From Candidatus Jordarchaeales archaeon (GTDB lineage Archaea; Asgardarchaeota; Jordiarchaeia; Jordiarchaeales; Freyrarchaeaceae): 64,000 nt of DNA. Under the pieces are notes generated by a model. It was not told where the DNA came from. It was given only the letters and a program-made list of their open reading frames with translations, and did not search any database. The position numbers and the translations under genes are program-made. The DNA lies in the NCBI GenBank assembly GCA_038889235.1, contig JAWAHN010000001.1, forward strand, positions 695,459 through 759,458, in the 5' to 3' direction. Shown piece after piece: positions 8,654 to 47,889 of this stretch. Position 1 is the stretch's first letter. Every line of letters starts with the position of its first letter.

Positions 8654-10126
8654 TTAACCCTTGACGACACCTATTGGTCTAAGTTTGGCTACTAGGGATG
8701 CAATGCCTACCTTATGGGAAACGTCGACAACCAAATCGACGTTTTTATACGCATCTGGCGCTTCTTCACTTATGACAACTATACTGGCAGCCTCTATGAG
8801 TATACCTGATTTTTGAAGCTCATTCTTGATTTTTTCACCCCAAAACTTCTTCTTTGCGTCAGCTCTGCTAAGCCGCCGGCCTGCACCGTGAGCCGTTGAA
8901 CCGAAACTTAGTTCCATGGATTCAGGGTTTCCTCGTAAGACATAACTAGCAGTACCCATGGTTCCAGGTATGAGAACCGGTTGCCCAATGTCTTTGTACT
9001 TTGACGGTATATCTGGATGACCTGGCGGGAAAGCTCTAGTAGCGCCTTTTCTGTGGACACATAGGACTTTGCTTTCGCCATCAACACGGTGTCTTTCAAG
9101 CTTAGCGATGTTGTGAGCCACATCGTATACTACATGTATTCCAAGGTCTTCGGAAGAAGAGGAGAAGACTTTTTCAAACGATTCGCGCACCCAGTGTGTT
9201 ATGCACTGCCTGTTTGCCCAAGCAAAGTTTGCAGCCGCCGCCATCGCCGCCAAGTAATCTTCACCCTCCCTGCTTTTTCCTGGAACAGCCGCCAGCTCTC
9301 TGTCTGGAAGCGAGATACCATACTTTCCCATTGCGTGCTCCATTATCTTTAAATAATCGGAGCATACCTGATGACCTAAACCACGTGAACCGGTATGTAT
9401 TAGTACTGCTATCTGTCCCTCAAATAATCCCATTTTCTCGGCTGCCCTCGCATCATAAACTTGCTCAACATATTGTATTTCAAGGAAGTGGTTACCGCTA
9501 CCTAGTGTCCCGAGTTGAGGGGCACCACGATCCTTTGCCTTAGAGGAGACCTTGCTCGCATCAGCACTCTTAAGACACCCCTCCTCCTCACAAAATATTC
9601 GGTCTTCATCCCAACCGAAGCCTTTTTCGATCGCCCAATTCACACCGCTTTCAAGTACTTCATTTAGTTCAGAGTGAGAGACTCTAATCTTGCCCTCAGA
9701 ACCCACACCACTAGGAATCTCTCTGAATAAAACTGCTAGTAACTCTTTGAGCTTGGGAATAACTTCTTTCTTCGAAAGATTTGTCCTGAGAAGACGAACA
9801 CCACAATTTATATCGTAACCAACCCCTCCTGGAGAAACCACACCATCCTCTTCAAAGTCGACTGCTGCAACTCCGCCTATGGGGAAACCATATCCTTGAT
9901 GAGCATCAGGAAGAGCTATGGAGTTTTTCTGGATTCCCGGTAGGCACGCTACATTCATAGCTTGAACTAATGTTTGGTCTTTCTTCATTCCATCGAGAAG
10001 TTCCTCATTCGCGAAAATTATGGCCGGAACACGCATACACTTCTTGGCATCCTTCGGTATTTCCCATATTAGGTTAGATCTTTTTTTCAGAGGAACCTGG
10101 GACACGCCCACCACCCTTCTTTCCAT
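8654..10126 (-). CDS. rtcB: tRNA-splicing RNA ligase RtcB
   Basis: GTP- and Mn-dependent RNA ligase that joins 2',3'-cyclic phosphate to 5'-OH ends, the archaeal ligase for exons released by the BHB splicing endonuclease. Metal and catalytic motifs are present: PDAHQGYGFPIGGVAA, GGVGYDINCGVR (Cys/Asp ligands), LGTLGSGNHFLEI, HTGSRGLGHQV, YDVAHNIAKLE, and the guanylylated-His region AHGAGRRLSRA. The start ATG at 10126 agrees with relatives; an upstream GTG at 10168 would add 14 residues. It is of special interest here because the window contains 16 probable tRNA introns and one mRNA intron that need this enzyme. Confidence 0.95.
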   Translation of the reverse strand: MERRVVGVSQVPLKKRSNLIWEIPKDAKKCMRVPAIIFANEELLDGMKKDQTLVQAMNVACLPGIQKNSIALPDAHQGYGFPIGGVAAVDFEEDGVVSPGGVGYDINCGVRLLRTNLSKKEVIPKLKELLAVLFREIPSGVGSEGKIRVSHSELNEVLESGVNWAIEKGFGWDEDRIFCEEEGCLKSADASKVSSKAKDRGAPQLGTLGSGNHFLEIQYVEQVYDARAAEKMGLFEGQIAVLIHTGSRGLGHQVCSDYLKIMEHAMGKYGISLPDRELAAVPGKSREGEDYLAAMAAAANFAWANRQCITHWVRESFEKVFSSSSEDLGIHVVYDVAHNIAKLERHRVDGESKVLCVHRKGATRAFPPGHPDIPSKYKDIGQPVLIPGTMGTASYVLRGNPESMELSFGSTAHGAGRRLSRADAKKKFWGEKIKNELQKSGILIEAASIVVISEEAPDAYKNVDLVVDVSHKVGIASLVAKLRPIGVVKG

Positions 10127-32002: not shown

Positions 32003-32142
32003 GCGGGGGTTCCCTAGTCTGGTCAATTTAAGTTGGCCAAAGGGGCCGGGCTTAGGACCGTTTATTAAGGGTAAGAGACCCGGTGGTGTAGGCAGTTAAA
32101 TGACACAAACCTGCGTGGGTTCAAATCCCACCCCCCGCACCA
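32003..32142 (+). tRNA. tRNA-Leu(UAG) with three introns
   Basis: Class II tRNA. The acceptor stem GCGGGGG/CCCCCGC is followed by discriminator A and an encoded CCA. The anticodon loop CUUAGGA gives UAG. Three BHB-type introns: D-loop 32027-32040 (14 nt; GGUC/GGCC central helix, bulges AAU and AAA); canonical 37/38 intron 32057-32077 (21 nt; CUUA/UAAG, bulges GGA and AGA); variable arm 32092-32108 (17 nt; GUGU/ACAC, bulges AGG and AAA). Removing all three yields 88 nt with variable arm U-GGU-GUAG-ACC-UGC, the pattern expected of archaeal tRNA-Leu. Confidence 0.92.
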
Positions 32143-33636: not shown

Positions 33637-33763
33637 TGGTGCAGGGGGTGGGATTTGAACCCACGCAGGCTTACGCTCCTCATTCGGATCTACGCCACGC
33701 GGGCCTCAGCCGCGTTCCTTTGACTTAGCCCGTTATTGCTACGTCTGGCTCGGACACCCCTGC
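33637..33763 (-). tRNA. tRNA-Leu(GAG) with two introns
   Basis: Read on the minus strand: acceptor GCAGGGG/CCCCUGC, discriminator A and encoded CCA, anticodon stem CGCGG/CCGCG and loop CUGAGGC (anticodon GAG, no intron at 37/38). D-loop intron 33725-33744 (20 nt): AGCC/GGCU helix, bulges AGA and AAG, inner CGU/ACG. Variable-arm intron 33671-33689 (19 nt): GCGU/GCGU with terminal G-U pairs, bulges AGA and AAG, inner UCC/GGA. The product is 88 nt with D-loop GAGCCAGGUCAAA and variable arm U-GGC-GUAG-GCC-UGC. Confidence 0.92.
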
Positions 33764-45784: not shown

Positions 45785-45866
45785 ATCTAAAATTATAACG
45801 TGACTGCAAATAAATGCCTGACGCGAAAAATTTGTAAGAGCATTTTTGAGAAAGTGACACGAAAAA

Positions 45867-45874
45867 TTTAATAA
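45867..45874 (+). promoter_or_regulatory. TATA box for tRNA-Asp
   Basis: TTTAATAA after GAAAAA ends 26 bases before the mature tRNA 5' end, the usual archaeal promoter spacing. Confidence 0.55.
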
Positions 45875-45899
45875 CCTTTTAAGGTACAGGTTTGCTGTA

Positions 45900-46058
45900 G
45901 CCCCGGTGGTGTAGCCACCATAAAGAGGCTGTAACGGCCGAGCATACGGGACAGTGACAAGCCCCTAATGTCAACGACGGTGGCAGAACTCCCGCGACCC
46001 GGGTAGTATATCCATCTGATGGATATACTAGGGATTTCAAATCCCGGCCGGGGCGCCA
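45900..46058 (+). tRNA. tRNA-Asp(GUC) with four introns
   Basis: Acceptor GCCCCGG/CCGGGGC, discriminator G, encoded CCA, anticodon stem CGGGA/UCCCG, loop CUGUCAC after splicing. Introns: D-loop 45917-45934 (18 nt); position 32/33, 45953-45968 (16 nt); 37/38, 45974-45988 (15 nt; CUGU/GCAG helix, bulges CAA and AAC); T-arm 53/54, 46004-46035 (32 nt; 11-bp inner stem, bulges GGU and AUU). The mature molecule is 78 nt with D-loop AGCCCGGCCGA and T-arm CCGGG-UUCAAAU-CCCGG. The two anticodon-loop introns isolate a 5-nt exon UGUCA. The D-loop boundary could shift by a few bases. Confidence 0.88.
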
Positions 46059-46144: not shown

Positions 46145-46289
46145 GGGCGGGTGGTCTAGAGCGAGAGCCAGCGGAGAACTTGGTATGATTCCCTCTTTGA
46201 GGGAGTAAAACCGGGTTTGGGACCCGGAGGCCCTGGGTTCAATGCTGTGCATGATTTATGCAGGCGAACAAATCCCAGCCCGCCCACCA
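46145..46289 (+). tRNA. tRNA-Pro(UGG) with three introns
   Basis: Acceptor GGGCGGG/CCCGCCC, discriminator A, encoded CCA, anticodon stem CCGGG/CCCGG and loop UUUGGGA (UGG). Introns: D-loop 46160-46180 (21 nt, relaxed BHB); 25/26 46190-46209 (20 nt; outer UUGG/CCGG, central UAUG/AGUA with a G-A pair, bulges AUU and AAA, inner CCCUC/GAGGG); T-loop 46243-46271 (29 nt; GUUC/GAAC, bulges AAU and AAA). The product is 75 nt with D-arm GUCUAGUGGUAUGAU, matching other tRNA-Pro. There is no intron at the usual 37/38 site. Confidence 0.9.
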
Positions 46290-46323
46290 TGCTTATAAAG
46301 CATTTTTTGGAGGGAGCTTCGAA

Positions 46324-47889
46324 GTGAAGTTTATGTTGAAGGGATGCATAGAGCTCAGTGGTAACCTTCCAGAAAATGCTACAAGCGAAATTGAAAAGTT
46401 TTTGAGTGACATTTATGGAAAAGTATTCTTGAAAGGTGCTCCTCAGGGTCGTGAGGAGGAAGGTGCACATTTAACTGCGTGGAGAGTGGAGGGGAATAGG
46501 TTTTATGTCGAGATAAAAAGTGGTAGGTATGTGCGTGCACATGTAGCACTCATTAGATTAAGGAACGTATTGGCAGAGTTTTTGGGTTCTAAGTTTGGGG
46601 TTGGTGTTAGGTCTTGCAAGGCGCTTGATTACATCTTAGAATTTGAGCTCGAAAAGGAGCCTATTGAACCTGTAAGGGTTCTTTTTGCAAGAGACGTGAA
46701 GTTTGATGGTAGAAAGGTTACTGTTTCCTTGGAGGAGTTAGATGACGCTGCTCTAGAAAAGAATTATCCAGATCGCATAATTAACCGCGTACGTGAGAAA
46801 GTTTCGAGACAATATGTTTCCGGTAAGAAGGAATTTACTCGTACTGTTAAACGTAAAGTAAAAGGGTTTGAGCGGTACAGGTTAAACGAGGACCCAACGG
46901 ATATTGCTGTTAAACTCGGTTGGGTCAAGGAGTACCCTGCAGCGGGAGTATGGCAAATAATGCCGCCCATGGCCGCATTAATCAGGGCCATGGAAACGTT
47001 AATAGTAGAAAGAGTTGCCAAGCCTCTTGGTTTCCAAGAAGTTATGCTTCCGCGCCTAATCCCACTCGAGGTTGAATACAGAAAGGGGCATTTTGGAATC
47101 GCAAACGAGATAATCTGGGCTTGCCCGCCTATCTCCCGAGATCCGAAGGACTTTGAAGACATTGTGGATTATGTCGAAATAACCGGCGGGCCGCCACCCC
47201 CAGAAATGTTGAAAGAAAAACTTAGACCACCCGTGTACGGACTTTCATACGCCCAATGCGAGCCTTTCTACGAAATGTTCCACAAGGAGATAGTGGACTT
47301 AGATATTCTCGAAAGAGAGCCTATAATGCTTTTCGACAGGAACGGTCCAACATACCGATGGGAGAGTGGCGGGATTAGAGGACTTGAGAGGCTTAATGAG
47401 TTTCACAGGATAGAGTTTGTTTTTCTCTCAACACCAGAAAAATGTGTTGAAATAAGGGATGAAGTACTTGAAAAAACTGAGAGACTTGTTGACGAAGTAT
47501 TGGACTTAGACTACAGAGTGGATGCCACCACAGCAGTGTATCTCGAGCACGCGGGGAAAAGCGGTGAGGACGAAGAATATGGAGGATTAGTTAAGACGTA
47601 CGATTTAACTGTTCTTTTACCTTTCCAGACGAAAAGCAGACCGGAAGCTGAGCTTGAAATAGCCAGCTTCCATGTTCACACGGACTTTTATGCCAAACGG
47701 TTCAATTTCAAAGACAAAAAGAGAAGGACAGTTTTTACTGGATGCGCTGGACTCGGCCCGTCTAGGTTCGCCTACGTTTTCCTGGTAAGACACGGATTTG
47801 ACTTTGAAGAATGGCCTGTCGAGGTTAAAAAGCACATAGGGGATAGGCTACCCGAGCCACCGCGTATGCTAACATGGCCAAAGAACTAG
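46324..47889 (+). CDS. serS2: Type-2 (methanogenic-type) seryl-tRNA synthetase
   Basis: Class II aminoacyl-tRNA synthetase of the rare SerRS2 kind, first known from methanogens, unlike the common type. N-terminal tRNA-binding domain (residues ~1-165, with RYVRAHVALIRLRNVL), then the catalytic core with zinc-dependent Ser binding: IWACPPISRDPKDFEDIVDYVEITGG, YAQCEPFYEMF and motif 2/3 residues (TYRWESGGIRGLERLNEFHRIE; VFTGCAGLGPSRFAYVF). Length is 521 aa. GTG at 46324, with GGAGGG nine bases upstream, was preferred to a frame running into tRNA-Pro. It also serylates tRNA-Sec in Sec-using archaea. Confidence 0.92.
   Translation: MKFMLKGCIELSGNLPENATSEIEKFLSDIYGKVFLKGAPQGREEEGAHLTAWRVEGNRFYVEIKSGRYVRAHVALIRLRNVLAEFLGSKFGVGVRSCKALDYILEFELEKEPIEPVRVLFARDVKFDGRKVTVSLEELDDAALEKNYPDRIINRVREKVSRQYVSGKKEFTRTVKRKVKGFERYRLNEDPTDIAVKLGWVKEYPAAGVWQIMPPMAALIRAMETLIVERVAKPLGFQEVMLPRLIPLEVEYRKGHFGIANEIIWACPPISRDPKDFEDIVDYVEITGGPPPPEMLKEKLRPPVYGLSYAQCEPFYEMFHKEIVDLDILEREPIMLFDRNGPTYRWESGGIRGLERLNEFHRIEFVFLSTPEKCVEIRDEVLEKTERLVDEVLDLDYRVDATTAVYLEHAGKSGEDEEYGGLVKTYDLTVLLPFQTKSRPEAELEIASFHVHTDFYAKRFNFKDKKRRTVFTGCAGLGPSRFAYVFLVRHGFDFEEWPVEVKKHIGDRLPEPPRMLTWPKN

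Follow-up and report, generated by a model that had tools for sequence, protein, structure and literature searches.

A tRNA-Asp(GUC) gene with four predicted bulge-helix-bulge introns in the Asgard archaeon Candidatus Jordarchaeum

Anatomy of the tRNA-Asp locus

The window analyzed here, a 64,000-nt stretch of contig JAWAHN010000001.1 (positions 695,459 to 759,458 of the forward strand; assembly GCA_038889235.1), carries a 159-base tRNA-Asp(GUC) gene in which five exons alternate with four introns (Table 1). Mature sequence, encoded CCA included, makes up 78 of these bases and introns the other 81, the same division that an earlier note, made from the sequence alone, had arrived at. Its placement of the introns in the D-loop, on both sides of the anticodon, and in the T-arm is backed by the relatives described below, and the 11-bp stem that it saw within the T-arm intron is perfect (TAGTATATCCA/TGGATATACTA). 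An assumed host in the Thermoproteales, on the other hand, is wrong: the genome is that of an Asgard archaeon, Candidatus (Ca.) Jordarchaeum of the class Jordarchaeia (= Freyarchaeia), with Jordarchaeum placed by NCBI in the Promethearchaeati, the Asgard group; the adjoining SerRS gene matches Ca. Jordarchaeum LHC_1308 and Jordarchaeia QC4. Judging from its sequence, the locus is very probably a working tRNA-Asp(GUC) gene, apparently single-copy and interrupted by four bulge-helix-bulge (BHB) introns, that would be transcribed and then freed of all four.

Joined in order, the exons give a complete tRNA of a single isotype: ARAGORN calls the spliced 78-mer tRNA-Asp(gtc), the isotype that had been proposed for it. 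On the unspliced gene, neither ARAGORN nor Rfam (at curated cut-offs) makes a tRNA call. Spliced alignment to the tRNA-Asp genes of other Asgard genomes gives the locus a score of 93, whereas 300 dinucleotide shuffles average 16 and reach at most 35, and 84 other segments of the window reach at most 32. All exons lie in order within the 159 bases, so the gene is neither split nor permuted; no Rfam intron family occurs in the window, and introns of 15 to 32 nt do not belong to group I or II, with their large ribozyme core. A 77-nt mature form, in which intron 1 would be one base longer, can be ruled out, as C17a is present in the intact relatives and the BHB register fits 78. Upstream lies a promoter-like element, and similar elements, resembling a B recognition element (BRE) and TATA box, precede the tRNA-Asp genes of the congeners.

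Table 1. Coordinates of the tRNA-Asp gene, its parts, and other features of the window
Feature	Position	Strand	Length (nt)	Description
tRNA-Asp(GUC) gene	45900-46058	+	159	five exons and four introns; host Ca. Jordarchaeum
Exon 1	45900-45916	+	17	positions 1-17 (acceptor 5' strand, first half of D-arm); D-loop intact in Odinarchaeum and sister family
Intron 1	45917-45934	+	18	17/17a, D-loop; central helix GTAG/CTGT, 4/4 paired
Exon 2	45935-45952	+	18	positions 17a-32
Intron 2	45953-45968	+	16	32/33; relaxed central helix GGG/CCC, 3/4
Exon 3	45969-45973	+	5	micro-exon U33-G34-U35-C36-A37 with anticodon GUC
Intron 3	45974-45988	+	15	canonical 37/38; central helix C32U33G34U35/GCAG, 4/4
Exon 4	45989-46003	+	15	positions 38-53
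Intron 4	46004-46035	+	32	53/54, T-arm; 11-bp stem; relaxed central helix CCC/GGG, 3/4
Exon 5	46036-46058	+	23	positions 54-73 and encoded CCA
Promoter-like element	45860-45876	+		archaeal BRE/TATA, by inspection only; TATA part TTTAATAA at 45867-45874, centre ~30 nt upstream of gene
tRNA-Pro(UGG)	46145-46289	+		directly 3' of tRNA-Asp; three introns (D-loop, 26/27, T-loop)
SerRS	46318-47889	+		methanogen-type tRNA-binding domain (PF18490), Asgard host; relatives Baldrarchaeum and Borrarchaeum
tRNA-Leu(UAG)	32003-32142	+		three introns, one in variable arm
tRNA-Leu(GAG)	33637-33763	-		two introns, one in variable arm
RtcB RNA ligase	8657-9964	-		PF01139, E = 1.6e-180

Intron boundaries and their history among relatives

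The boundaries were set by comparing the window genome (G000) with its congeners (G001, G002, and G003), genomes of the sister family (G005 to G007), and two Odinarchaeum-like genomes (G010 and G019). Each of the four intron sites is uninterrupted in some relative, with different relatives serving for different sites. In G002 and G003, the gene has three introns (17/17a, 32/33, and 53/54) and is unbroken at 37/38 (contiguous UGUCACUCCCG), with exon 3 joined directly to the next exon; because both genomes read TGTCACTCCCG without interruption, the 15-nt 37/38 intron of the window gene is exactly delimited. The G001 gene has introns at 32/33, 37/38, and 53/54, and the end of its contig falls inside the gene, leaving the D-loop beyond the contig. 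Sister-family genes have intact D-loops and anticodon loops and two introns (variable loop and 53/54), and the Odinarchaeum-like genes have the 53/54 intron only. The T-arm junction is assigned to 53/54, not 54/55, since G001 has a C as the first base after CCGGG. As for the D-loop, the 17/17a site is also occupied, by different sequence, in G002 and G003, and it holds an intron in the tRNA-Glu(CUC) gene of the window genome as well.

Compared with G002 and G003, the exons are identical at 77 of 78 bases, whereas introns that occupy the same sites have different sequences and, in some cases, different lengths; near-identical exons alongside diverging introns indicate that the gene has been kept functional. 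The same contrast is hard to reconcile with a pseudogene in decay or a copy that is not expressed, which we consider very unlikely. Such a copy would fit the lack of any ARAGORN or Rfam call on the unspliced gene, but the second, intact tRNA-Asp gene that the earlier note had named as a counter-indication was sought in the 95%-complete genome and no other tRNA-Asp gene was found, and most of the other tRNA genes surveyed are also interrupted and would have to be regarded as equally "dead."

Even less probable is a gene with three introns only, in which the anticodon region would be removed as one longer piece and TGTCA would not be an exon. Unguided spliced alignment does prefer a single 32-nt gap at this place, since the score gained by aligning a 5-nt exon is smaller than the cost of two gap penalties. 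The loop produced in this way, however, would have neither U33 nor an Asp anticodon; moreover, TGTCA is contiguous with CTCCCG in G002 and G003, where only the 32/33 intron precedes it, and the 37/38 piece makes a perfect 4-bp BHB helix by itself.

Among the four introns thus delimited, that at 53/54 is the most widespread: every congener has it at this position, as do the sister family and Odinarchaeum. Those in the D-loop and at 32/33 occur within the genus only (the latter in G001, G002, and G003, and absent from the sister family and Odinarchaeum), and the 37/38 intron is confined to the window genome and G001. The tRNA-Asp genes of related genomes therefore cover every number of introns from one to four, so that gain and loss can be traced site by site. 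The 15 bases of the 37/38 intron are identical in the window genome and G001, between which proteins are about 76 to 84% identical. Set against a three-protein tree of the form (G000,(G002,(G001,G003))), with support of 97 to 99%, its distribution requires two gains, one gain combined with two losses, or exchange among lineages; a single clean gain on the window branch is unsupported, given this tree and the presence of the intron in G001. Recent exchange, repeated loss, or a chimera at the end of the G001 contig may explain the identical intron. That an assembly error or chimera added one intron to the window gene is highly improbable: the occurrence of the same 37/38 intron in G000 and G001 but not in G002 or G003, against the tree, and the location of the G001 copy at a contig end speak for it, but the window gene sits inside a 1.11-Mb contig, its gene order (tRNA-Asp, tRNA-Pro, SerRS) is the same in the congeners, the splice motif fits every intron, and doubt falls mainly on G001.

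Splice motifs, predicted order, and enzymes

Splice motifs were assessed at a fixed BHB geometry (5' bulge, two exon bases and one intron base; 3' bulge, two intron bases and one exon base), with the pairing of each tRNA-Asp central helix as given in Table 1. Applied to 14 tRNA genes of the window genome, this geometry yields a fully paired central helix in 18 of 29 introns, where 0.9 would be expected and where none of 2000 shuffles exceeds 5. For the 53/54 helix, a reading of the sister-family and Odinarchaeum sequences would give a perfect CCCG/CGGG, of which the Jordarchaeum helix looks like a slightly decayed version.

Several observations weigh against a working gene with four BHB introns. 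Two of the four central helices (introns 2 and 4) contain a mismatch; when the whole molecule is folded at 37 C, introns 1 and 4 do not form their BHB helices, and that of intron 2 reaches a value of only 0.45 in the full precursor; and the genome itself is a draft, 95% complete. Because whole-molecule folding fails or reaches only 0.45 for introns 1, 2, and 4, we assume that their motifs are recognized locally.

Removal of the 37/38 intron is predicted to depend on prior loss of the 32/33 intron: the 37/38 helix needs C32-U33-G34-U35, and the 32/33 intron parts C32 from U33. In partition-function folding, the 37/38 helix pairs with a probability of 0.99 to 1.0 in each of the four intermediates that have lost the 32/33 intron and at ≤0.08 in all four that retain it; for introns 1 and 4, whose motifs whole-molecule folding misses, such folding offers no guidance. 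The order predicted by this model, with 32/33 out before 37/38, would be obligatory, and it is directly testable, as it involves one enzyme and one transcript. Cases in which one intron has to be removed before the next motif can form are known from archaeal tRNAs (PMC8450103), and in the three-intron tRNA of Cyanidioschyzon merolae the anticodon intron is the last to go (PMC9602550). We tentatively raise a broader possibility, without favoring it: that this is the first four-intron tRNA gene described, in which the anticodon lies on a 5-base exon and the removal of one intron builds the next splice motif, and that the resulting obligatory order might serve as an inherent control by which only anticodons that have been processed correctly get joined.

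The genome encodes two splicing-endonuclease genes (PF01974 subunits). One is a match to the catalytic subunit of Aeropyrum (3p1z), retains GPGIDHAP and SVRKKF, and has a K-P-K that lines up with K44-P45-R46 in the Crenarchaea-specific loop of the Aeropyrum enzyme, in which changes to P45 or R46 sharply reduce cleavage (PMC12397907). The second, going by its sequence, lacks the catalytic histidine and resembles a structural subunit. The splicing endonuclease of the window genome is of the (alpha-beta) type. RtcB, whose gene lies in the window, is the likely exon-joining enzyme. Under the mechanism that we propose, the two-subunit endonuclease would cut each intron at its BHB or relaxed BHB motif, with the 32/33 intron removed ahead of the 37/38 intron, and RtcB would ligate the exons.

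Other tRNA genes and comparison with known systems

A partial survey of the window genome covered 26 tRNA genes, 25 of which are interrupted, by 51 introns in total: one gene (Asp) has four introns, eight have three, seven have two, nine have one, and one has none. After splicing, 23 of the 26 receive an isotype call, boundaries being less certain in the other genes than in Asp. The resulting load of ~2.0 introns per surveyed gene compares with 71 introns in 46 tRNA genes in Pyrobaculum calidifontis, the highest cited (PMC8450103). Both tRNA-Glu genes (G000:C1:666083-666213 and 760886-761022) have three introns each, one of them at 34/35, within the anticodon itself. The tRNA-Pro(GGG) gene (G000:C1:772863-773032) is, at 170 bases, longer than the tRNA-Asp gene and contains three introns of ~33, 29, and 33 nt; in the tRNA-Gln genes, the 53/54 introns measure just 11 nt.

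The readable literature gives no more than three introns for any one tRNA gene, whether in archaea or in C. merolae, which bears out the view that four is extreme among known cases. No four-intron archaeal tRNA gene was found in that literature, the tables of PMC11291895 being outside its reach. Within the readable literature, the highest number of introns in a single tRNA gene thus rises from three to four, and the record case falls in the Asgard archaea, the archaeal group most closely related to eukaryotes.

The known system nearest in host is that of the Atabeyarchaeia and Freyarchaeia, the latter being the same class as the host. In these groups, 92 to 95% of tRNA genes have introns and over half have several, often at noncanonical positions, so that multi-intron genes are already published (PMC11291895); the main text of that work states no per-gene maximum. 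Sister-family tRNA-Asp genes have two introns, versus four in the window gene. Multi-intron tRNA genes of the Thermoproteales (Pyrobaculum and Thermofilum) resemble the window system in their (alpha-beta) type endonuclease and in having 53/54 and 37/38 as known positions, but they belong to another phylum and their published maximum is three per gene. The tRNA-Ile(UAU) of C. merolae likewise has D-arm, 37/38, and 53/54 introns, with motifs of the hBHBh' form and its anticodon intron last out (PMC9602550); it is, however, eukaryotic and has three introns, one of which is in the anticodon loop, where the window gene has two around a 5-nt exon. The split tRNA-Asp(GUC) of Aeropyrum and Thermosphaera shares the isotype and a joint at 37/38, but is assembled from two transcripts, in contrast with the single locus and ordered exons of the window gene. 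Taken together, the kind of gene is already known, and its four introns are probably a record count, one above the published maximum that we found.
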